The notes under the pieces: model-generated | The model's database searches: none | What the model saw: only the letters and a program-made list of their open reading frames with translations | What the model was told of the DNA's origin: nothing | Made by a program: the position numbers and the translations under genes | Assembly (NCBI GenBank): GCA_900314605.1 | Contig: OMVX01000008.1 | Location: forward strand, 1 to 44,804 | Length of the DNA stretch: 44,804 nt | Reading direction: 5' to 3' | Source of the DNA: an uncultured Methanobrevibacter sp. | Lineage (GTDB): Archaea > Methanobacteriota > Methanobacteria > Methanobacteriales > Methanobacteriaceae | Part shown: one piece after another, positions 8,205 to 38,375 of the stretch | Layout: every line of letters starts with the position of its first letter | Numbering within the stretch: the stretch's first letter is position 1

Positions 8205-9620
8205 TTGAAAATACGTAGTGGAAGATTAGATAAGGAAATGACTGATGAAGCTGCAGAGTTTACTTCTTCACTCGAAGCAGATAAAGAGATTTTTTATGCA
8301 GATATTAAATGTAATTTTGCTCATACGACTATGCTTAAACAAGAGAGCATTATTGACAGCGATATTGCAGATAAAATATTAAATGCTCTTTTACAACTTA
8401 AAGAGGAAGGTTACTCTGTTTTAAATTTTGACCCTAGTGTAGAAGATATACATATGGCTATTGAAAATTATGTTACTTCTATTGTAGGTCCTGATGCAGG
8501 ATTTATGCATACTGCTAAATCTAGAAATGATCAGGTAGCTACAGATATTCGAATTGTTTTAAGAGAAAAAATTAGGGATATTCAATTAAATATTTTAGAT
8601 TTTATTGATGATTTAGTGGATATGGCGGATAATTATAAAGAATCTGTTTTCATTGGTTTTACTCACCTTCAACATGCTCAACCAATTACTATTGCTCATC
8701 ATTTGATGGCACATGTTCAAGTATTAAAAAGAGACTATGAAAGATTAGATGATACGTATAAGCGTGTAAATCTTAATCCATTAGGTTCTGCTGCTATGAC
8801 TACTACTAGTTTTCCTATTAATAGGGATCTTACTACTAAACTTTTAGGATTTGATGGGTATCTTGAAAACTCTATGGATGGAGTATCAGCACGCGATTTT
8901 GCAGCTGAAGCCATATTTGATTTATCCTCTCTTTGCACTACCTTATCTAAAATATGCGAGGAGCTTATTCTATGGAGTACTTATGAATTTTCTGTTATTC
9001 GAATGGATGATGCATATTGTTCTACTTCATCTATTATGCCTCAAAAGAAAAATCCAGATGTTGCAGAAGTAGCACGTAGTAAGGCTACACGTGTAAATGG
9101 AGAACTTGTGACCGTATTAACTATGCTTAAAGCATTACCCTACACTTACAATAGAGACCTTCAAGAAATTACTCCTCATTTATGGAATAGTTTTTATGAG
9201 TCTAATGCTGTTTTAAGTATTGTATCTAAAATGTTACTTTCAGTTAAATTTAATGAAGATGTATGTTTAAATTTAGCTGGGAAAAATTTTGCAACTGCAA
9301 CAGACCTTGCGGATATTATGGTTCGTGAGAAGAAAATTCCATTTAGAACTGCTCATCAGATTGTAGGTAGAGTAGTAAATGAGGCAACAGTAAAAGGTAT
9401 GGAAGCTACTGATGTTACAAGTGAGTTTGTAGATAATGTATGTAGAGAACTTGAAATTCATGAGTTAAATCTTGATGATGAACTTGTTAAAAGTGCTCTT
9501 GATCCTCTTGAAAATGTTAAAATGAGAAAGGTTCCAGGTGGTCCTTCACCTGAAATGGTTACAATTGCAATGAAAAATATTAAAGAGTTTATAAAAAAGG
9601 AAAGAGAATCTAAGTTTTAA
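8205..9620 (+). CDS. argH: Argininosuccinate lyase
   Basis: A 471-residue enzyme of the fumarase/aspartase superfamily that cleaves argininosuccinate to arginine and fumarate. The superfamily signature [13 protein letters not shown] near residue 275, [13 protein letters not shown] near residue 105 and [11 protein letters not shown] near residue 155 are present. I chose TTG 8205 ([12 protein letters not shown]) because AAGGTGAG at 8193-8200 is the SD. GTG 8196 inside that SD would add three residues. The gene is monocistronic, convergent with the following minus-strand gene after 13 bases. Confidence 0.95.
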
Positions 9621-26847: not shown

Positions 26848-27987
26848 TTATTTAGTCATCAAATCCATTATTGTAAATGGTTCTCCTTCTTCTTTTTCTT
26901 GCGAAGTTTTAGCACCTGGCATTCCAGGTATACCATTTTTTATTAAATCCTGTTTCTGGCGATCTTTCATATTTTGGAATATTAATTTATATGCCTCACA
27001 TTGGGGGTCTACTGCTTTTGGACTTTGTGCTGCTACTATTCCATTATATGGACAACCACCATTACAGTGTTTTATGAATCTACATCTTTTACAGTCTTCT
27101 TTTACATAGTCATTAAATTCATGTAATAGTTTATATGCATTAGATGATTCTAAATCTTCTACTGTAGGTTTGTCTTTTACATTCCCCATAATATATTCAT
27201 CCATTCCTACAAATCTGTAACATGGGTATATGTTACCATCATGACCTACTGCTAATGTGTCTCCTACACAGTCATTAAATGCACATAAGGTTCCTCTTCT
27301 TATAAAGCTACTTTTTGCCATATGGTCAAAATCCATTATTTGGAATTTATCTAAATCATATAGATATTTATCTAAAAGTTCTACCATTAATTTTCCATAA
27401 TCTTCCTGATTTAATGCCCATGGGTCTGCATTTTCTCCTCTTAGTGATGGTAGTGCAGAATGAATTTTAACAGTTGCTTTTAAGTCTTTAAAGTAGTCAT
27501 ATATTTCACTAGCATAATCTTTTGAGTATGATGTAAATGTACAAACATAACTTACATATAATCCTTTATCTTCTGCAAGGTGAACACTTCTCATAGTTTT
27601 ATCATAGTAACCTTCACCTCTTTGATAATCGGTAATTTCTTTAGGTCCATCTATACTAGTTGATAAAATTACATTGTTTTCTACTAGAAGGTCAGCTATT
27701 TCATCATCAAGTAGCCATAAATTAGATTGCATTGAGTAACCACTATGATTTGGAAGGGTGTTTAATATTTTAAATGCATCTTTATAATAATCATATCCTG
27801 GAAGTAGAGGTTCACCACCATGAAATGTAAAGTGTACCTCATCATCACATCTAAAACATTCTAACCATTCTTTAATATTTTCAACTATACTTATATCCAT
27901 AATTTCTGCTTGTTTATCTGAGCCCCAACAGTATTTACACATACCAGGACATCTTAATGTTGGAATTATCATTATATGAAATGGCAT
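26848..27987 (-). CDS. Radical SAM/SPASM-domain enzyme, probable peptide maturase
   Basis: A 379-residue radical SAM protein. The CxxxCxxC cluster (C13, C17, C20 in LRCPGMCKYCWG) and HGGEPLLPG are present in the N-terminal TIM barrel. The C-terminal third has SPASM-type cysteines (DCVGD, YPCYRF, CKRCRFIKHCNGGCP). This architecture belongs to maturases of ribosomal peptides or sulfatases. No Cys-rich precursor or sulfatase gene lies beside it. I chose ATG 27987 because TGTGAT lies three bases before it; TTG 27999 would overlap that SD. Confidence 0.88.
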   Translation of the reverse strand: MPFHIMIIPTLRCPGMCKYCWGSDKQAEIMDISIVENIKEWLECFRCDDEVHFTFHGGEPLLPGYDYYKDAFKILNTLPNHSGYSMQSNLWLLDDEIADLLVENNVILSTSIDGPKEITDYQRGEGYYDKTMRSVHLAEDKGLYVSYVCTFTSYSKDYASEIYDYFKDLKATVKIHSALPSLRGENADPWALNQEDYGKLMVELLDKYLYDLDKFQIMDFDHMAKSSFIRRGTLCAFNDCVGDTLAVGHDGNIYPCYRFVGMDEYIMGNVKDKPTVEDLESSNAYKLLHEFNDYVKEDCKRCRFIKHCNGGCPYNGIVAAQSPKAVDPQCEAYKLIFQNMKDRQKQDLIKNGIPGMPGAKTSQEKEEGEPFTIMDLMTK

Positions 27988-27999
27988 TTTATCACACAA

Positions 28000-28437
28000 A
28001 ACTTTTAATAAATGATTATTATAATTATCATATTTTCTTTTAATATATCTATATCTTTATTTTATAAAATTTATTCTCTAATTTAATTATTATTATCTTA
28101 AAGAATTAGAATAATATATTTTTTATTATTATTTCATAAAATCTACATGTTCTCATTTTTTTGGTATACTTTATTAATAGATACTCATTTAAGTGAGTGG
28201 TAGTTTATTAATGGTACTCATAAAAGTATGATACTTAATATAATAGAACACATTTAAGTGAGTGAGTTAAGCATGTACTTTCAAAAAGAAATTTAATAAT
28301 TATACTTAAATATATATACATTTAAAATAAACTAGAATAATTAAGTAGATAATGGATAAAAACAGTTAATGGATACAAATAATAATTTTATTTAAATAAA
28401 ATGAGTATAAAATTATTAAAAAATTAAAACTTAAAAT
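28000..28437. other. Intergenic region with a short repeat cluster
   Basis: A 438-base spacer between two minus-strand genes. No ORF is supported. It contains the repeats listed at 28186-28264. The rest is AT-rich and unremarkable. It is the 5' region of the radical SAM gene. Confidence 0.5.
28186..28264. repeat. Direct 14-base repeats with palindromic cores
   Basis: CATTTAAGTGAGTG occurs at 28186-28199 and again at 28251-28264. The first copy sits in ACTCA-(6)-TGAGT, an inverted pair. Between the copies, AAGTATGATACTT (28224-28236) is a perfect 13-base interrupted palindrome, and TTTATTAAT plus TACTCAT recurs around 28171-28220. There is no CRISPR-like regular spacing. Likely protein-binding sites or a decayed small mobile sequence. 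Confidence 0.55.
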
Positions 28438-28647
28438 TTAATAAATTTTTTTATTTAATTCTTTAACATACTTGCTTTTTGGATCTTCTGAATGGTCTTC
28501 TGCACCTTCAAATTCATATCCACATTCACTACATTTAAAATAAGCAGTTTCAGCATGTGCACTTTGTGTGTCTATAAATTTACGGCGTACAGTTTTATCT
28601 GTAGATCCACAGTTAGGACATTCTTTAATTATATCTTCTACTTTCAT
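28438..28647 (-). CDS. TFIIS C-terminal-like zinc ribbon, stand-alone
   Basis: A 69-residue protein consisting of one zinc ribbon (CPNC at 10-13, CSEC at 39-42) with QSAHAETAYFKCSECGYEF. This resembles the C-terminal ribbon of TFS/TFIIS/Rpb9-type proteins. Archaeal TFS normally has about 110 residues with an N-terminal domain and an acidic SADE tip; here the tip reads SAHAE and the N-terminal domain is missing. It may be an RNA polymerase-binding paralogue without cleavage activity. A charged 15-residue tail follows. Function is inferred from resemblance. Confidence 0.75.
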   Translation of the reverse strand: MKVEDIIKECPNCGSTDKTVRRKFIDTQSAHAETAYFKCSECGYEFEGAEDHSEDPKSKYVKELNKKIY

Positions 28648-29075
28648 ATTCTCACCAATAAATTTTATTGTAATTATTTTAATATTATTCTTTTTAACTT
28701 ATAAATTTATATAATTTTATTAGAAAATGTGTAGATTTTATTGTAGATAATACGCAGCTGTTTAAGTTTAATAAAGCAGACCTTATTTATTTATATAATT
28801 CTCCATTCCTCTGCAGGATTATATCTGGTGTAGGATGTACAATAGATAAGATACTTAAAGTGTCAATGATTTATAAACAGGTGATTGGTGCAATAACTTC
28901 AAGAAAATACTTTAATTTTAAACAAGATTAATTAGTATATTTAAATCATAACTTAATTGATAATAGTTTTTGTCCTTATGAACTTATTTAAAATTACAAA
29001 TATAGCAAAAAATAAATAATGTTAAGTTTTTAAAAAAATTTAATAATTATTCTAGATTATATTTTAATACTTTAC

Positions 29076-29354
29076 CTATAAACCCACAGAAATGCTTAAT
29101 AACATGCAAAATGGTATTGTAAAAAAATGTCCAATATTAAAAAACTGCTTATAAAACCAATAATTGCACCGTAAGTATAGCATATGAAGTTTCATTATTA
29201 GTAATAAAACCTGAAATAGCTCCACCAATAATCAAGCCCATTATATCTATAGATCCAATATCTGTTATAATCCAATTAAAATCATAATTACTGATACAAT
29301 TACTCCTTTAACAATTGGTATTAATTCAACATTAATTGCAATATCTTCTGACAT
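29076..29354 (-). pseudogene. Frameshifted small membrane protein (DUF5518-like)
   Basis: From an ATG at 29354, behind a good GGTGAT SD, the frame gives MSEDIAINVELIPIVKG and a hydrophobic segment, then stops at 29265-29267. Coding character continues in shifted frames with Gly/Ile-rich membrane sequence (GLIIGGAISGFITNN, then GAIIGFISSFLI). At least two frameshifts are needed to join them, so the gene is broken. The Gly-rich hydrophobic pattern resembles the small membrane proteins labelled DUF5518 in Methanobacteriales, but that match is from memory and weak. Confidence 0.55.
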
Positions 29355-29366
29355 GGTTATCACCAT

Positions 29367-29495
29367 TTATTTTATTATCTTATCAAGAAGTTCTTCATCT
29401 GGCATAGTATTATCACCAAATCTGTCATAAATGAGGGGAACTATTATAAAAATGACTTTATCATTATAAAAATATATTTCAATAAATTTTCCCAA
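29367..29495 (-). pseudogene. C-terminal remnant of a small protein
   Basis: A 42-residue frame ends with VPLIYDRFGDNTMPDEELL before TAA at 29367. It has only a TTG head with no SD. An overlapping frame starting at an ATG near 29513 stops early, so a frameshift may have split one gene. It lies 12 bases upstream of the broken membrane protein on the same strand, suggesting a former two-gene unit. Confidence 0.4.
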
Positions 29496-29771
29496 AACAT
29501 ATAAAAAGAAGAAAGAAAAAAGTGATTTAATTAAAATAATTTAAAATTAAATTAATTAGTATGTGAATAATCTTAATTAAAAATTAGCACATAATTTTTT
29601 TAAAGAACCATTTAAACCTATAGATTTATATATTTATAATATAATATAATATACTGTAATTAATATAATTAATATAATATAATATAATAGGGATTAACTT
29701 ATAATTATTTTTGATGTGGTTATCTATTGTTGATTTAAAAGTCTGATTTAGTACACATATCTCAAAAAAAA

Positions 29772-29779
29772 TATATAAA
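29772..29779 (+). promoter_or_regulatory. TATA box of the GGDEF-like/adhesin operon
   Basis: TATATAAA preceded by an A run (29764-29770) forms a strong BRE/TATA-like element. Transcription would start near 29800, leaving about 110 bases of leader before the SD AGGAGG at 29901-29906. The leader contains a 21-codon ATG ORF (from about 29800 to a TAG near 29864) of unknown meaning. Confidence 0.5.
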
Positions 29780-29912
29780 CATTAATAAAGAGTATAAAGA
29801 TGAAAATTCTATTGAAGAGCATGAATAAAGGTAATATTACTAGTGTCGAATATTTAATTTATTAGTCTCTTATAAACCAGAATATTTAAACAATAATTTT
29901 AGGAGGAAAATT

Positions 29913-30839
29913 ATGGAAATAAAATCTGCGAAAATTTTATTAATTAGCGATGATAAGGAAAAAATGTTTTTTAATAAAATTAAGAATATATTTAAAAATG
30001 ACAAATCAATTAATTTAATTTATTCTAATTCTTCTACTCATAATTTAAATAATCATATGTTTTTTGATTTATCTATGATTTTTATTGATTACGAATTTTT
30101 AAATACTGATATAGAAGAATTATTATCATTTATTATATCTTATTTATCTTATAAACCTTTTGTTATTATATTTTCAAAAAAACAGCATAATCTATCATCT
30201 AAAAACATTTATGAAAATGCTCTTATATTTAGTAAACCTATAGATGAGAATTTTTATAATTCCACTAAAAATATGCTTGATATTTTAAGGTATAAACTGG
30301 AGATTAGTGATGTAACTTTATTACCAGGATTATTAGAACTTACTAATGTTTTAGAAGAAAAATTCGACAATAATGAAAATTTCTCCTTACTTTATATAGA
30401 TATTGATAAATTTAAATCTTTTACTGATTATTATGGTTTAAAAAGGGCTACTGAACTTTTAATTCATTTATCACAAATTATTATTAATGTAATGAGCGAA
30501 TATGTTGATTTTCTTAATAATATATATAATATTGGTGGAGATGATTTTGCTATAATTTTGGCTGATGACCATAATATTAAAGAACTGGGTGATAAAATAA
30601 TTGAAAGGTTTGATGAAATTGTGCCTAAATATTATGATGATGAAGATTTAAGAAAAGGATATATTTCTGTGTTAAATAGAGAGGGTATTTATGAAGATTT
30701 TTCTTTAATATCTTTATCTATTATTTCTGTTACAAATAATTTTAATAAATATCATTCTATAATGGATATATATAATGAAATGAAGCAAATGAAATATAAT
30801 GCTAAACAATTTGGAGGATCTATTTTATTGCAGACATGA
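29913..30839 (+). CDS. Receiver-like plus GGDEF-like signalling protein (first of pair)
   Basis: A 308-residue soluble protein. Residues 6-125 form a receiver-like domain with acidic D13-D14, candidate phosphoacceptor D59 (MIFIDYEF), S88 and K108-P109. Residues 135-305 match a GGDEF domain: PGLLELTNVLEEKF, the metal-site YIDIDKFKSF (D163, D165) and GGDDF at 208-212 in place of GGDEF. Guanine-contact positions are altered: FKxxND reads FKSFTD and the following GD reads A179-T180. SD AGGAGG is strong. The second paralogue starts 16 bases downstream. It may be an active nucleotide cyclase with changed specificity or a binding-only domain. Confidence 0.8.
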   Translation: MEIKSAKILLISDDKEKMFFNKIKNIFKNDKSINLIYSNSSTHNLNNHMFFDLSMIFIDYEFLNTDIEELLSFIISYLSYKPFVIIFSKKQHNLSSKNIYENALIFSKPIDENFYNSTKNMLDILRYKLEISDVTLLPGLLELTNVLEEKFDNNENFSLLYIDIDKFKSFTDYYGLKRATELLIHLSQIIINVMSEYVDFLNNIYNIGGDDFAIILADDHNIKELGDKIIERFDEIVPKYYDDEDLRKGYISVLNREGIYEDFSLISLSIISVTNNFNKYHSIMDIYNEMKQMKYNAKQFGGSILLQT

Positions 30840-30855
30840 TTAGGAGTTTTATTTT

Positions 30856-31773
30856 ATGAAAGATAAAAATATTTTAGTTATTGATGATAAAGGCGATGTA
30901 ATTAAATTAATGTTAGATTTATTTAAAAATGATTCTCATATAAAAATCAAATCTATCAAATCTAATATTGAAGATTTAAAGAAAAATTTTACAATCCTTG
31001 ATTATATGATTATAATAAATGAAGATGATTTAGATTGTGATTTAAATGATATTATCAATTTTTTAAATTATCATTTTTCACAAAAATTGCCTATTTTTAT
31101 TATTTCTAGTGATGAGGGCACTGTTAAAAATCATAAATTTATGTCTTCAGTTTATAATTATATACTTAAACCTCTAGAAAAAGATGAATTTAAAAATACA
31201 ATTAAATATATTATTAAGGTATGTGATTATAATAAAAATTGCAATCCATTTTCTAATATTCCTGGAAGATTTATTTTTAAAAATAAAGTTCAAAATGAAA
31301 TAAAAAATGGAACAAATTTTAATGTTTTATACGTCGATTTGAATAATTTTAAAGAATTTAGTGAATATGTAGGTCTAAAAAAAACGAACGAAGTACTTGT
31401 TATGTTTAGTCAATTATTATTTAATATAACCAAAAAATATTTTAATACTAATGATGTTATAGGGCATGTTGATGGTGATGATTATGTATTATTATTAACC
31501 GATACTACTAAGACTGAAATTATATGTGATAAAATTATTAAAGAGTTTGATAAAAAAATCGTCGATTATTATTCAAATGAAGATTTAAAAAAGGGGTTTA
31601 TTGAAGTTTTAAATAGATCAGGTCATCTAGAAAAAATCAATATTATGGGAATTTCAATTGTTATTATGAAATCATCAGATTTTTTAAACAAAACCCCTGA
31701 TGATATTTACATTCAAATGATGAAACTTAAAAGAATCGCAAAAACAAAAAAATGCTCTACTATAATGTCTTAA
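30856..31773 (+). CDS. Receiver-like plus degenerate GGDEF-like protein (second of pair)
   Basis: A 305-residue paralogue of the preceding gene. The receiver-like part keeps D10-D11 and K105-P106, but the phosphoacceptor position reads Asn55 (MIIINEDD). The GGDEF-like part has YVDLNNFKEF (second metal Asp replaced by Asn163) and DGDDY at 206-210 where the first protein has GGDDF. Both share an unusual segment near residue 240 (EDLxKG[YF]IxVLNRxG). Loss of key residues suggests a pseudo-enzyme partner or nucleotide sensor. The adhesin begins 31 bases downstream, so all three probably form one transcript. Confidence 0.78.
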   Translation: MKDKNILVIDDKGDVIKLMLDLFKNDSHIKIKSIKSNIEDLKKNFTILDYMIIINEDDLDCDLNDIINFLNYHFSQKLPIFIISSDEGTVKNHKFMSSVYNYILKPLEKDEFKNTIKYIIKVCDYNKNCNPFSNIPGRFIFKNKVQNEIKNGTNFNVLYVDLNNFKEFSEYVGLKKTNEVLVMFSQLLFNITKKYFNTNDVIGHVDGDDYVLLLTDTTKTEIICDKIIKEFDKKIVDYYSNEDLKKGFIEVLNRSGHLEKINIMGISIVIMKSSDFLNKTPDDIYIQMMKLKRIAKTKKCSTIMS

Positions 31774-31804
31774 AATATTATTAATAAATTAAGGAGGAAA
31801 AGTT

Positions 31805-34800
31805 ATGAACAAAAATTATTTTTTAATATTAATTTTATGTTTAATGTTTTTATTGGTATCTACAGTATCTGCTAATCCATATGATGATTCAAATATTAAT
31901 TCTACTTATGAAGATTATAATAATAAAATAAATGAAAATAAATTTATTAATAATGATTATGATACTTCTTCAAATGGGTATGTTAATGATACTTCTTCAA
32001 ATTGGTATGTTAATGGAAGCCGAAATGAAGATGGTAATGGAACAATGGAAAATCCCTTTAATAATCTTGAAAGTTCATTGATACATTCAAATGATGGAGA
32101 TACAATATATATTGCTTCTGGAACATATAAAGGCATTAAAAATCTTAATTTAACTATTAATAAAAGATTAAATTTTATTAATTATGGTGGTGAAGTAATT
32201 TTTGATGGTGAGCATAAATATACGATTTTTAATGTTACTACAAATTCATTGAATATTACGGGTTTAACATTTACCAATGCTTATTCTATAACAAATGGGG
32301 GATGTATTAATTTTGAAACAGGTTTAATAAATAGTAAAATTAATGCAAATTTCATTAATTGTTCAGCATTTTATGGGGGAGCAATATATTTCAATGGTGA
32401 TGTTATTAATAATATTTTTATTGGTTCATTTATTAATAATACGGCATTAGGTCATGGTGGTGCTATTTATTTAAATTCTAAATTAAAAAATAACTTGTGG
32501 GATATCATTTGTAATGGAAATTTAGCTCATTTTGAAGGTGGAGCTATATACGTTGATGCTGATTCTATAAATAATACTTTCATTGGTCTTTTCACAAATA
32601 ATACAGCGAATTCTGTTTCTGGTGGTGCAATTATTTTTAATAAAACTTCAAATAATGATATATTTAGTGGGAACTTTTATAATAATACTGCAACATATTA
32701 TGGTGGTGCAATCAAGTTCTATGATGAAGTAAAATATTGTTTATTTTCAGGTAATTTTTCATATAATTTTGTTACTGCTGGATCTGATGCTGCATTATCT
32801 TTTGATTATAATTCTGTAGTTGAATATTGTAATTTTTCAGGTAATTTCATTCATAATCATCTAAATGAATTCCAAACAGGTGGAATAGGTTTTTTGGGTA
32901 TTGCTAATAATAATATCATCGACGGTTATTTCCTTAATAATTCTGATGGTGCTATTTATTTTCAACTAAAATCTACTAATAATACAATTAATGCTACTTT
33001 TATAAATCATACCCCTAAACATGTAGGTGTTATTCATTTTGAGGATATTTCTATTAATAATATTATTGATTCTAAATTTATTAATAATAAAATATTAGAG
33101 CATGGAGCTGCTATTACATATTATGCAGGAGCTATAAATAATATTATAAAAGGGGAATTTATCAATAATACTGCAGAATATAATGGAGGGGCAATTGCTA
33201 TTTATCAAGCTCAAGGTTATATTGAACCTGTTTATAACCTTACAATTTCCGGAATTTTTATCAATAATACTGCAAAACAAAAAGGAGGGGCAATATATAT
33301 CAATTATGCTTACAATGTCTTATTTGATAATTGTACATTTGATAATAATTATGGATTGCAAGGAGGTGCAATATTTATTGATAAAAATGTTAATGCCACT
33401 ATAATTAATTCAAGATTTACTAATAATAACAATGATGCTAAACTCAGTAAAAATGTTTTAGGTGGGGCTATTTTTCTAAACACTTCTAATATTAATATTG
33501 ATTCATGTGATTTTGATAATAATCAAGCTTATTATGGAGGAGGAATTTTTTTCGAAGATAGTGGTACTGTAATCAATTCTAAATTTATTAATAATAAAAG
33601 AGCATTCGGAGGTTCTGGAATTTATTTTAAAAATGATGGAATTGTTATAAATTGTAATTTTACTAATCATACCAGTGAATTTGATGGTGCAGCTATATAT
33701 TTCCAATCTAATGCAACTATAATAGATTCTATTTTCACTGAAAATTGTGTATCTTCTTATGGTGGTGCAGTATATGTTAAAGGTTTAGCTAATATTACAA
33801 ATTCACAATTTATACTTAATAATGCTACTTGTGGTGGTGCAATCTACTTAGAAAACTTAGGATATATAGTCTCATGTATTTTTAATAGTAATTCTGCAAA
33901 AAATAATGCTGGAGGAGCAATTTTATCCAATAATATTATTACTATTAATAATTCTACATTTACTAATAACACAGCAATAAAAAAAGGAGGAGCAATTATA
34001 ACTTATGGTGGTGGAATAATTAGAAATTCTATTTTTATAGATAATTCCGCTCATTCTGGAGGAGCTATATCTACTACTAATATGTTAAATATTTCACAAA
34101 ATATATTTCAGGGTAATATTGCTATAGATGGAACAAATGATTTTAATTTAGAAAATAATTCTATATTAAAATATATAGTTGATCTTAATTTAATAGAAAT
34201 TAAAGATATTAAATATGGAGATAATGTTAAAATTAATATTTCAGTATTTTGTGAAGGTAAACCATTAAATGAGGGTAAGGTGACTGTTAATATTAAAGGT
34301 TTAGAATATTCTGCAAAGGTATATAATGGAAAAGCAGTTATTTTAATCCCAAAATTAAATGTTGGAAATTATACTGTTAATGTGAATTTTAATGGAGGAA
34401 TAAATTATACCCAAGCATTTTTACCTGTAACTTTTTCTGTTTTAAAACAGAATGCAAAAATTTTAGCTACATCTAAAACATTTGTAATTAATTATGGTGG
34501 GAAATATTCTATTACATTGAAAGATGTTAATAATAAACAAATCTCCGGTTTAAAAATTTCATTTAAATTTAATGGTAAAAATTTATATGCTACCACTAAT
34601 TCTAAAGGTATTGCTACTATTAAATTTAGTTCAGATATTCTTAAAAAGGCTAAAGCAGGTAAACATAATCTAGTAATTACTCTTAATAATAAAAATTATA
34701 ATACAATTACTAAGACTGTTAAAATAAATATTAATAAAGAAAAAACAAAATTGATTGCTCAAAATACGAAGTTTAAAAAATATTTAAAGATAAAAAAATA

Positions 34801-35023
34801 TGGAGTTATTTTAAAAAATAGTAAAGGAAAAGCTATTAAAAATGCTAAACTAGCCTTAAAAATTAATGGTAAAACTTATCAGGTCAAAACAAATTCTAAA
34901 GGTATAGCTTGTTTTAAAATAACTAATTTACGAGTTAAGGGTAAGTTTATAGCTAAAATCCTATTTAAAACAACACCTTACTATCAATCTATTAGTAAAA
35001 CTGTTAAGATAACTGTACAATAA
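31805..35023 (+). CDS. Secreted adhesin-like protein with parallel beta-helix and Ig-like repeats
   Basis: A 1072-residue surface protein. A signal peptide (about residues 1-23, ending STVSA) leads into an Asn-rich linker. Residues 55-785 carry many repeats of the type GGAIYF...N..F.NN[TS]A, the right-handed parallel beta-helix of adhesin-like proteins (ALPs). About three Ig-like modules follow (788-880, 881-970, 975-1072), the last two with KT[FN]SKGIA-type turns. Many NxT/S sites could be glycosylated. No C-terminal membrane helix is seen, so attachment may be through the basic C-terminal modules. SD AAGGAGG precedes ATG 31805. Confidence 0.92.
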   Translation: MNKNYFLILILCLMFLLVSTVSANPYDDSNINSTYEDYNNKINENKFINNDYDTSSNGYVNDTSSNWYVNGSRNEDGNGTMENPFNNLESSLIHSNDGDTIYIASGTYKGIKNLNLTINKRLNFINYGGEVIFDGEHKYTIFNVTTNSLNITGLTFTNAYSITNGGCINFETGLINSKINANFINCSAFYGGAIYFNGDVINNIFIGSFINNTALGHGGAIYLNSKLKNNLWDIICNGNLAHFEGGAIYVDADSINNTFIGLFTNNTANSVSGGAIIFNKTSNNDIFSGNFYNNTATYYGGAIKFYDEVKYCLFSGNFSYNFVTAGSDAALSFDYNSVVEYCNFSGNFIHNHLNEFQTGGIGFLGIANNNIIDGYFLNNSDGAIYFQLKSTNNTINATFINHTPKHVGVIHFEDISINNIIDSKFINNKILEHGAAITYYAGAINNIIKGEFINNTAEYNGGAIAIYQAQGYIEPVYNLTISGIFINNTAKQKGGAIYINYAYNVLFDNCTFDNNYGLQGGAIFIDKNVNATIINSRFTNNNNDAKLSKNVLGGAIFLNTSNINIDSCDFDNNQAYYGGGIFFEDSGTVINSKFINNKRAFGGSGIYFKNDGIVINCNFTNHTSEFDGAAIYFQSNATIIDSIFTENCVSSYGGAVYVKGLANITNSQFILNNATCGGAIYLENLGYIVSCIFNSNSAKNNAGGAILSNNIITINNSTFTNNTAIKKGGAIITYGGGIIRNSIFIDNSAHSGGAISTTNMLNISQNIFQGNIAIDGTNDFNLENNSILKYIVDLNLIEIKDIKYGDNVKINISVFCEGKPLNEGKVTVNIKGLEYSAKVYNGKAVILIPKLNVGNYTVNVNFNGGINYTQAFLPVTFSVLKQNAKILATSKTFVINYGGKYSITLKDVNNKQISGLKISFKFNGKNLYATTNSKGIATIKFSSDILKKAKAGKHNLVITLNNKNYNTITKTVKININKEKTKLIAQNTKFKKYLKIKKYGVILKNSKGKAIKNAKLALKINGKTYQVKTNSKGIACFKITNLRVKGKFIAKILFKTTPYYQSISKTVKITVQ
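31961..32014 (+). repeat. 27-base tandem duplication in the adhesin N-terminus
   Basis: Bases 31961-31987 and 31988-32014 are direct repeats with one mismatch. They encode two copies of a DTSSNxYVN unit in the linker after the signal peptide. In-frame expansion by slippage would change linker length without breaking the gene. Confidence 0.85.
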
Positions 35024-35117
35024 TGTCATTGTATTAAACATTATATTATTATTATTTAATCCTTATGATTGCACTTAAAAAATTTTTATAATAATGATAT
35101 AAAGTTAGGTTGATAAT

Positions 35118-36488
35118 GTGGAAAAAGATAATATTAATATTTTAAAAGAAGATCCTAAAGAATCTATAATGAAAATTGCAGTACCACTTATGATTACGAC
35201 CCTAATAACCAATCTTTATAATATAGTAGATGGAATGTGGATTACTGGTTTAGGCATAAATGCAATTACAGGTATTAGTTTGATAACGCCTATATTTACT
35301 CTGATTAATGGTGTTGCAACAGGATTAGGTAATGGAGTAATCAGTACTATTAATCGTTTTAGGGAGGAATATGGAAAAGATTCAGCCTCTACAGTAGGTA
35401 GTCAGGCTATAGTAATTAGTATATTTATTTCAATATTAATGACCATTGTTTTATGTATATCTTTAAATTATTATTTAGATATTTATGGAGGATCTTATCT
35501 TATAAATAAAGAGGCAATTTCATATGCTACTCCATTATTTCTAGGTTTATCAAGTTTTGTAGTGTCTATTATATTTTCTAGCATTCTTAGAGCAGAAGGA
35601 GACACTAAAAGATCTATGTATGCTCTTTCATTTGGATTAATCTTGAATGCATTATTGGATCCGGTATTTATATATACATTTAAATTAGGTTCAGCAGGAG
35701 CATCTATATCAACAATTTTTACATCACTAATTAGTGCATTGATAATGTATTATTGGATTTTCATTAAGAAGGATATTTCTACTAAAATTAATGTAAAAAA
35801 GGTCTTAAAATCCAAATGGGAATGGTTTATTACAAAAGACATTTTAAAAACAGGTATTCCAGCTTCTTTTGTATTATTTACTTTATCTTTTTCAACACTG
35901 ATTTATTATATATTCATTTATTTAATTGGTGGTGAATTAGGTATATCAATATATTCTTCAGGTTATAGGATTTATATTTTAGGGAATATGCCAATTACAG
36001 CAATCTCAAATGCATTGGTGATTATTATTGCAACATTTTATGGTGCTAATAATATTAAATTTTTAAAACGAGCCCATACTTATGGTACAATTACAGCTTT
36101 TAATTTATCATTATTAATTTGTGCAATATTTTTCATATTTTCAGATCAAATAGCTTCTATATTTATGATAACTACAAATTATCCACCATTAACTGAGGGT
36201 ATTTCTCAGTATATTCGTATTACAGCCTTTTGTATCCCATTTTTAGGTTTAGGATTACCCTCTACTTATTTATATCAGGGAACAGGTAAGGCTTTTATGA
36301 GTTTATTATGGACAATAATGTCTGAAATAATATGTGTAGTTCCAGCAGTGTATTTTATTGTATTTTATTTCAATACTGGATTAATTGGTATATGGACTGG
36401 TTTTGTTGTTGGAAGAGCTATTTCAAATATTTTGAATCTCATATTTGCCCGTATATATATTTACAAATTAGAAAAAAAGATTATATAA
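35118..36488 (+). CDS. MATE-family efflux transporter
   Basis: A 456-residue, roughly twelve-helix MATE transporter, only distantly similar to the one at 22387. The start ESIMKIAVPLMITTLITNLYN, the loop NGVATGLGNGVISTINRF and RAEGDTKRSMYALSFG are family features. It starts at GTG 35118 with GGTTGAT upstream. It follows the adhesin gene by 94 bases on the same strand; whether it is co-transcribed is unclear. Substrate unknown. Confidence 0.92.
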   Translation: MEKDNINILKEDPKESIMKIAVPLMITTLITNLYNIVDGMWITGLGINAITGISLITPIFTLINGVATGLGNGVISTINRFREEYGKDSASTVGSQAIVISIFISILMTIVLCISLNYYLDIYGGSYLINKEAISYATPLFLGLSSFVVSIIFSSILRAEGDTKRSMYALSFGLILNALLDPVFIYTFKLGSAGASISTIFTSLISALIMYYWIFIKKDISTKINVKKVLKSKWEWFITKDILKTGIPASFVLFTLSFSTLIYYIFIYLIGGELGISIYSSGYRIYILGNMPITAISNALVIIIATFYGANNIKFLKRAHTYGTITAFNLSLLICAIFFIFSDQIASIFMITTNYPPLTEGISQYIRITAFCIPFLGLGLPSTYLYQGTGKAFMSLLWTIMSEIICVVPAVYFIVFYFNTGLIGIWTGFVVGRAISNILNLIFARIYIYKLEKKII

Positions 36489-36712
36489 AATATATTCATT
36501 TCGATTTTGAACTTATTGAAAACTAAAATATCCAATTGCCAAAAAAGAATACATAATATTTTTTTCCTAAAATTTTTCTCAAAACATTTTTAAAAAAGAA
36601 TGAATATAGAAAAGGGACTTTTATTAAGATTTATCTTAAAAATTAATTAGGAAACTTAATAATGGTAATTAAATATTACCACAATTTTTAAAAAAAAATT
36701 AAAATCAAAAAA

Positions 36713-36743: not shown

Positions 36744-38375
36744 ATGTTATATGAAGAGAATATCACTTTAAAGTCTTTAGATGATATCGATATTAGAGTT
36801 GGTTTAATTTATCCAGATGTTTATGAAAATGTTACTTTATCTACTGGATTTGAACTTTTATATCATATGATAAATGATAGAAATGATTGCTATTGTGAAA
36901 GATTTATTTATCCTCATACAAATAGTTTAGAAACAAAATCCTCTTTAAAAGAATTTGATATATTAAGTTTTACTATACATCATACAGATGCTTATTTTAA
37001 AATAATTGAAATATTGAAAAAAGCTGATATACCTATATTACGTGAAAACAGAACAAATGATGATCCATTAATTATTATAGGAGGTCCAATAACAACATCA
37101 AATCCTGCACCACTCAGTAAATTCATAGATATTTTTTGTATTGGTGAGGGTGAATGTATATTAAATAAGTTAATTGATACTTATAAAAAATTTGAAAACC
37201 CTAAAGAACACTTAAATGAATTTCTAGATATTCAAGGAGTATATATTCCTAAATTTAATAATCATACAAAAATAGCTTTAATTGATAATATGGATGAAAA
37301 ATTTCACAACACCAATCCCATTATTGTTAAAAACGAAGATAATGAAATTGTTAATACTATTAGACTTGATGTTTTAAGGGGTTGTAGTCATGGATGCAGA
37401 TTTTGTATGGCAGGTTATTTATATAAACCTTCACGAGAAACATCTTTGGAAAAACTAATAGAAATTGCTGAGGCAGCACGTGAAAATACAGGTATCAGCT
37501 CAGTATATTTAGTGGGGCCTGATATAGCTGATCATTCTAGATTTCTTGAATTAATTGATGAACTCAATAAAAGAAACTTTAATGTAGGACTTCCATCTAC
37601 AAGGATAGAAAAAATTTCTAGAAATATGTTACAAAATTTAAAAGATTCAGGGACAGATCACTTTGATATAGCGCCAGAATCAATTTATAAAATTAGAAGA
37701 TCAATTAATAAAGATTTTGAGGATGAAAAAATAGATTATGTTATGAAAACTGCATTTGATATTGGTCTTAATTTAAAATTTTTATTCCTAATAGGTTTTC
37801 CACAAGAAACAAATGAAGACATTGTTGATTTATCCAAATATATTAAATCAATTATAAAAACAAGAGATGATTTTGATAAGAATATTGAATTAGATTTCAG
37901 AGTCTCTCCTGTAGTGCCAAAACCAAATACTACTCTTCAATGGCAACATTTTGATATTGATACTATTAATTCTAAAATTGATATATTTTTAGACGAATTA
38001 AATGATTTGAATCTTGAATGTATTGGAGATACTATGATGGGTCGTACTTATACGAATTATTCTATTAATTTGAGATTTGATTTTATTTCAAATGAAGATT
38101 GTTTTAAAGATTATATTCTAAGTTGTGGAAATAGTGAACTTGGAGATTTAATAATGAATGGTAGTTTTAATAGTCCTTTATCTCAATGGGAACAATATGC
38201 TCCAAAATATGATTTTGATGATGTACTACCATGGGATTGTATAGATTTAGGTTATAGAAAGGGTTTTATTAAGGCAGAATATAAAAGAATGCTAAAAAAC
38301 AAGTTAACCTTATGGTGTGTCGAAAATAAATGTTATAATTGTAAAGATAACTGTTTTGAAAATGATTTTATTTAA
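36744..38375 (+). CDS. B12-binding-type radical SAM protein
   Basis: A 543-residue radical SAM enzyme. Residues 15-170 resemble a cobalamin-binding-like N-domain (VGLIYPDVYENV, IIIGGPITTSNPAPLSKFID, GEGE). The radical SAM core follows with CxxxCxxC in RGCSHGCRFCMAGYLYKP near residue 215, then IAPESIYKIRRSINK and LFLIGFPQETNEDI. A cysteine group at the C-terminus (CVENKCYNCKDNC) may bind a further cluster. It resembles archaeal/clostridial TIGR03960-like proteins; the substrate is unknown. Probably translated from a leaderless mRNA. Confidence 0.87.
   Translation: MLYEENITLKSLDDIDIRVGLIYPDVYENVTLSTGFELLYHMINDRNDCYCERFIYPHTNSLETKSSLKEFDILSFTIHHTDAYFKIIEILKKADIPILRENRTNDDPLIIIGGPITTSNPAPLSKFIDIFCIGEGECILNKLIDTYKKFENPKEHLNEFLDIQGVYIPKFNNHTKIALIDNMDEKFHNTNPIIVKNEDNEIVNTIRLDVLRGCSHGCRFCMAGYLYKPSRETSLEKLIEIAEAARENTGISSVYLVGPDIADHSRFLELIDELNKRNFNVGLPSTRIEKISRNMLQNLKDSGTDHFDIAPESIYKIRRSINKDFEDEKIDYVMKTAFDIGLNLKFLFLIGFPQETNEDIVDLSKYIKSIIKTRDDFDKNIELDFRVSPVVPKPNTTLQWQHFDIDTINSKIDIFLDELNDLNLECIGDTMMGRTYTNYSINLRFDFISNEDCFKDYILSCGNSELGDLIMNGSFNSPLSQWEQYAPKYDFDDVLPWDCIDLGYRKGFIKAEYKRMLKNKLTLWCVENKCYNCKDNCFENDFI

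Follow-up and report, generated by a model that had tools for sequence, protein, structure and literature searches.

The stretch of DNA analysed here (hereafter the window) comprises positions 1-44,804 of contig OMVX01000008.1 from an uncultured Methanobrevibacter sp. It carries two adjacent genes, A (29913-30839, + strand, 308 aa) and B (30856-31773, + strand, 305 aa), whose products combine a receiver-like (REC) and a GGDEF domain. Downstream on the same strand lie an adhesin-like gene and a gene for a PfMATE-type MATE transporter (35118-36488, + strand, 456 aa). The explanation we favour, with middling confidence, is that A and B are a noncanonical REC-GGDEF pair which was transferred between domains of life and controls the transporter outside any cyclic di-GMP (c-di-GMP) network. 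Judging by the company these genes keep in relatives, they are more likely to be a small unit for control of the transporter than a c-di-GMP switch for biofilm formation of the classic kind. The initial annotation had grouped A and B with the adhesin as an adhesion module controlled by a nucleotide or a phosphorelay. It stopped one gene short, as the partner conserved across archaea and Bacteroidales is the MATE transporter.

Both proteins scored above the Pfam cut-off of 23.8 bits for GGDEF (PF00990; A, 44.6 bits, E = 1.7e-11; B, 45.6 bits, E = 8.1e-12) and are the sole GGDEF proteins detected in the window genome. Protein A contains YIDIDKFK and GGDDF, in agreement with the DID-x-FK and GGDDF motifs first read in it, and protein B contains YVDLNNFK and DGDDY. 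The receiver half is weak by sequence: B reached 14.2 bits against Response_reg, below the cut-off of 30.2, and A gave no match. AlphaFold models of the two proteins, built on six-sequence alignments (pLDDT 71 for A, 81 for B), were searched with Foldseek against solved structures. The best matches of both were the full-length REC-GGDEF proteins WspR, PleD and DgcR (best E = 1.6e-10 for A and 1.2e-13 for B), with DosC also among the GGDEF-fold matches. Whole-chain TM-scores against REC-GGDEF structures were only 0.3-0.5, a low range that would be expected from a different relative placement of the two domains. A GGDEF-like fold, which had been set beforehand as a check, was thus recovered for both proteins. 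Since the models match these regulators over their full length, the receiver half is, as modelled, real as a fold. The proposed receiver-like domains are upheld structurally; neither reaches the cut-off of the Pfam profile, and the phospho-acceptor Asp is missing in B.

The pair is genuinely archaeal. The window contig carries core methanogen genes (including IF2/aIF5B, aIF2-gamma, S6e and NDK), and the same pair is present in a second methanogen, G042, whose genome is a single contig of 2.27 Mb with no other GGDEF protein; contamination was ruled out for both on these grounds. Across the two archaeal genera, A and B are each conserved at 38-41% identity, with the same fold and a conserved core. 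These were the only two carriers of the pair among 152 Methanobacteriota genomes, and the same-genus relatives G006-G008 contained no GGDEF protein at all. Given two carriers in 152 genomes, one of them single-contig, the pair is rare and accessory in Methanobacteriota and not an assembly artefact, in line with the expectation that GGDEF domains are rare in Archaea. One further genome among the 152, G060, encodes a lone REC-GGDDF protein (L050 9551-10540, - strand), which has no MATE partner, lies near a histidine kinase-like gene (8712-9473, +) and keeps the equivalent of PleD N335 and not that of D344. Strong canonical GGDEF matches on small contigs of three Methanobacteriaceae assemblies (L053, L054 and L055 of G076, G024 and G128; 150, 147 and 122 bits) were set aside as different proteins, and represent either contamination or separate acquisitions.

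Counterparts outside the archaea were sought with a pattern scan for A across the genomes of 84,980 species, which needed an exact eight-residue stretch and so missed divergent members. Six full-length relatives were found, all in metagenome-assembled genomes (MAGs) of Bacteroidales, several of which are labelled as coming from water-buffalo rumen or omasum. All six MAGs hold both A and B, which are the sole two GGDEF proteins of each genome. The order in five of them is A-MATE-B, with 3-6 bp between A and MATE and a MATE-B junction that is an overlap of 4 or 28 bp or a gap of 7 bp. In G042 the order is A-B-MATE (gaps of 10 and 20 bp), and the window has A-B-adhesin-MATE, with MATE in fourth place (gaps of 16, 31 and 94 bp). 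The same three genes thus occur on one strand in three arrangements. Moreover, the Bacteroidales genome G450, which shares synteny with G154, has the same flanking genes but between them retains only about 39 codons of B and neither A nor MATE, which would be a joint loss of the three genes in one block. Contamination was excluded for the Bacteroidales copies by their syntenic chromosomal flanks. Carriage by phages or plasmids was also considered and rejected, as viral contigs held no relative and plasmids no full-length match.

The trees point to shared descent of the unit. The MATE transporters of the Bacteroidales modules are sister to the archaeal module clade (support 100/99), and together these fall within a methanogen-rich clade (100/100), apart from nine other MATEs from Bacteroidales genomes. 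In the tree of the regulators, which has long branches and moderate support, copies from archaea and from bacteria occur in both the A family and the B family; the duplication that gave rise to A and B therefore appears to predate the transfer or the archaeal-bacterial split of the unit. The sample comprises one Bacteroidales lineage and two archaea, and the transfer is read without direction or donor. Conservation of the neighbourhood, a second check set beforehand, was found: the module is kept in G042, though the partner that crosses domains is MATE and not the adhesin.

The window MATE scored 183.7 bits against TIGR00797 (cut-off 147.4), and its closest solved transporter is PfMATE (E = 1.7e-100). 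Both N-lobe Asp positions, which we take to be D41 and D184 of PfMATE, align. With both positions conserved in a PfMATE-like protein, the window protein is probably a working antiporter. In Bacteroidales, the ratio of nonsynonymous to synonymous substitution (dN/dS) was 0.06-0.15 for A, 0.05-0.14 for B and 0.06-0.15 for MATE; these are therefore constrained proteins and not debris. MATE-like genes are numerous in the window genome (at least 16), and a second, distant one lies on the window contig itself (22387-23763, minus strand).

The GGDEF active sites of the pair are altered. Residue positions are given in PleD numbering and were assigned by alignment, with roles as established from structures of diguanylate cyclases (DGCs). 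All copies of A keep D327, D329, K332, GGDD and K442, and the metal-site Asp, the Lys and GGDD are likewise retained in every B except that of the window, which has DLN and DGDDY at the usual metal-site and GGDEF motifs. The guanine contacts fare differently. In all eight copies of A the N335 equivalent is T or C and the D344 equivalent G or T (T and T in the window). The two positions are S and N in window B and D and S in G042 B. Bacteroidales B proteins keep both, together with GGDDF, and are the only module members to do so. The R446 equivalent is lost in all module copies, and no member has an RxxD I-site. At the phospho-acceptor position on strand 3, there is Asp in both archaeal A proteins, Asn in B, and His or Asn in Bacteroidales A. 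The position of GacA 348, which marks the Hypr class of cyclic GMP-AMP (cGAMP) synthases, is Thr in window A, Ser in G042 B and Gly in the other A copies; the GGDEF specificity position is also treated in PMC6456294. EAL and PilZ, the two c-di-GMP-handling domains searched for genome-wide, were each absent from all nine carrier genomes. Taken together, the missing EAL and PilZ domains, the missing I-site, the lost guanine contacts and a B protein with DGDDY and no phospho-Asp make canonical c-di-GMP signalling unlikely. Neither A (GGDDF) nor B (DGDDY) matches the active-DGC motif [G/A/S]G[D/E]E[F/Y]. However, GGDDF alone is no proof of inactivity, because the GGDDF enzyme GSU1937 is active and makes cGAMP and c-di-GMP (PMC8835794), and PA3258 shows apparent phosphodiesterase and DGC activity in one study (PMC12900916). 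Results on PA3258 are mixed, as another study, cited in PMC8835794, is reported to have seen no effect of it on c-di-GMP.

Under the explanation favoured here, A, B and MATE would form a small accessory unit that gut Bacteroidales and methanogens came to have in common through horizontal transfer. A and B, as divergent REC-GGDEF paralogues, may work jointly, with their noncanonical GGDEF domains probably forming a heterodimer. Such a pair would bind a nucleotide or another signal in the cytoplasm and control the co-encoded PfMATE-type exporter, and with it the transport of a presumed substrate. In the archaeal lineage the cluster would also include a co-oriented, possibly co-transcribed adhesin-like gene.

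Several points weigh against this explanation. At L016, A and B occur with no MATE between them or directly downstream, on a contig that begins 308 bp before A, and the corresponding 1.6-Mb genome gave no MATE match at E = 1e-30. The Bacteroidales carriers are a single lineage and not independent cases. In the window, MATE is set off from B by the adhesin and by the 94-bp gap, which contains a weak TATA-like site, and MATE may therefore be transcribed separately. The clade also includes MATEs that have no GGDEF partners (G000:C8, L126 7781-9157; G007:C15, L127 822-2192; 63-64% identical to the module MATE), so the transporter needs no pair. Selection on the archaeal module may be relaxed or changed, as hinted by the very long window branches (1.81 for A, 1.37 for B) and by a dN/dS of 0.64 between the window and G007 MATEs (window 35118-36482 against L125), with 0.30 for the adjoining radical SAM gene. 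Lastly, the support for the unit comes from sequence and predicted structure.

The long branches, the degenerate DGDDY and DLN motifs of B and its lost specificity residues would also fit decay, with methanogen A and B left over from a system acquired from bacteria and gradually being lost while they stay next to a MATE and an adhesin that are useful. Consistent with such decay, the close relatives G006-G008 have no GGDEF protein, G450 has lost the unit, and a pseudogene lies next door in G042. However, both reading frames are intact behind strong Shine-Dalgarno sequences, and the identity, fold and core kept across two archaeal genera imply long-term selection. Moreover, A already lacks the specificity residues in Bacteroidales, where its dN/dS is low. 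We regard decay as unlikely, though the least so of the alternatives.

A second alternative, that of the initial annotation, has the adhesin as the target of the pair, which would regulate it on a phosphorelay or nucleotide signal. The adhesin gene (31805-35023, + strand) encodes 1072 aa with Chlam_PMP, Beta_helix and Big_3_5 matches above the Pfam cut-offs, i.e. beta-helix and Ig-like repeats, and a hydrophobic, secretion signal-like N-terminus, features by which methanogen adhesin-like proteins are recognised. It begins 31 bp after B behind a strong Shine-Dalgarno sequence. The window adhesin and that of the G042 module are mutual best full-length matches (the pieces sum to about 480 bits in either direction); in one of the comparisons, a C29 protein has a single piece with a higher score. 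In G007 the order adhesin-MATE-radical SAM is kept with an adhesin copy that is 80% identical; the contig starts inside this gene, and the A/B region is beyond view. The adhesin is thus a recurrent archaeal neighbour, and this part of the proposed link holds. We considered it as a core partner across domains and rejected it, as it is absent beside all the Bacteroidales modules. Its position relative to MATE also shifts, from between B and MATE in the window to after MATE in G042. Adhesin-like genes are abundant in these genomes (more than 100 matching stretches in G000), which makes such a neighbour less surprising, and neither A nor B has a Pfam DNA-binding domain. Control of adhesion by a cyclic dinucleotide in the bacterial style is not supported, given the absence of EAL, PilZ and I-site, the lost guanine contacts and the missing phospho-Asp of B. 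Regulation of the adhesin by the pair is, on balance, quite unlikely.

A third alternative is that B, which looks intact in Bacteroidales, or A and B together make a cyclic or linear dinucleotide that MATE exports as an extracellular signal. Several features are consistent with synthesis: the metal-site Asp, the Lys and the GGDD motif, retained by A and by every B other than the window copy; the N335 and D344 equivalents of Bacteroidales B; the activity of GSU1937 despite its GGDDF motif; and the Thr of window A and Ser of G042 B at the Hypr position. The absence of EAL and PilZ from the carriers is expected if the product leaves the cell, although the receptor search covered these two domains and not riboswitches, HD-GYP or MshEN genome-wide. 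Against export of a signal, both archaeal proteins have lost both guanine contacts, R446 is lost throughout the module and the Hypr residue is not kept among orthologues. Furthermore, we know of no MATE that exports a cyclic dinucleotide. We consider export of a signal improbable. Slightly more improbable still is its narrower form, in which a REC-GGDEF heterodimer makes a dinucleotide other than c-di-GMP, or one like cGAMP, that MATE exports, so that gut methanogens and Bacteroidales release a nucleotide signal while having no EAL/PilZ machinery of their own to handle it. A diguanylate cyclase engaged in ordinary local c-di-GMP signalling would agree with the GGDEF family membership and the metal site of A. 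This has very little chance of being correct, given nine carrier genomes with no EAL or PilZ, no I-site and two window proteins that have both lost the guanine contacts.

The components taken singly have precedents: there are known REC-GGDEF proteins and GGDDF variants, known MATE transporters and known export machines regulated by degenerate GGDEF proteins. The response regulators WspR, PleD and Leptospira DgcR, the top PDB fold matches, share the domain order and predicted fold of A and B, but the module differs from them in lacking the RxxD I-site, in its altered guanine contacts, in a B without phospho-Asp, in REC domains below the Pfam cut-off and in a genome without EAL or PilZ. Closer in motif are REC-GGDDF proteins of Omnitrophota (L017-L020) and the EAL-CBS-GGDEF proteins P. 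aeruginosa PA3258 and P. fluorescens RapA, which have in common with the module GGDDF, the signature LPGN...DFIGHIGGDDF and an FYxxxDxxxGYI...NRxG insert. A plasmid-borne P. aeruginosa protein has the same signature and an EAL-CBS-GGDDF layout, from which we take it to be PA3258-like. These relatives keep the N335 and D344 equivalents and lie in a kinase or EAL context, whereas the module consists of two diverged paralogues with a MATE. The Hypr synthases GacA and GSU1937 (the latter with GGDDF) resemble window A and G042 B in Thr or Ser at the specificity position, but these two also have another residue in place of the N335 equivalent, orthologues do not consistently share the trait and the I-site is missing. 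The module MATE differs from Pyrococcus furiosus PfMATE in sitting in a putative operon with REC-GGDEF genes. PelD provides a precedent for a catalytically degenerate GGDEF protein regulating a co-encoded membrane export machine (PMC7112168); it binds c-di-GMP through an RxxD motif absent from the module, and its architecture and exporter differ.

Our literature search returned no report of a REC-GGDEF pair tied to a MATE and common to methanogens and Bacteroidales, and no paper that places MATE and GGDEF genes together in an operon. In a census that covered complete genomes of archaea, no response regulators with GGDEF output were reported; the census knew of one archaeal GGDEF domain (Methanocella) and left open whether others were contamination (PMC5847659). 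Such a pair is now seen in one archaeal genome assembled as a single contig and, in another, on a contig with core methanogen genes, and its bacterial counterparts occur in the same gene context. The case illustrates GGDEF proteins that occur apart from a c-di-GMP network, and it raises a hypothesis open to testing, in which a pair with the GGDEF fold controls a MATE transporter or supplies it. Should the pair prove active, it would have a bearing on the question of unusual dinucleotide synthesis in archaea and gut Bacteroidales.

The layout of the window cluster is as first described, with A, B and the adhesin in tandem, separated by 16 and 31 bases and preceded by Shine-Dalgarno sequences (AGGAGGA for A at 29901-29907, AGGAG for B at 30842-30846 and AGGAGGA for the adhesin at 31792-31798, all + strand). 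The suggestion of one TATA box also agrees with what was found: a predicted BRE/TATA-like promoter element, AAAAAAATATATAAA (29765-29779, + strand), lies 133 bp 5′ of the start of A (shuffle P = 0.028) and is a candidate single promoter of the cluster. No comparably unusual element was seen in the A-B, B-adhesin or adhesin-MATE gaps (P = 0.25, 0.90 and 0.17). With a contig GC content of 25.7%, this is modest evidence for a promoter. No riboswitch or other known RNA was detected by Rfam within 27900-36700. The region 5′ of A (28000-29912, about 1.9 kb) is without any open reading frame (ORF) of at least 80 aa. Downstream, the cluster is adjoined by a radical SAM gene (36744-38375, + strand). 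An eroded pseudogene of it lies directly upstream of A in G042 (L049 7678-8192), which argues for shared ancestry of the window and G042 loci.

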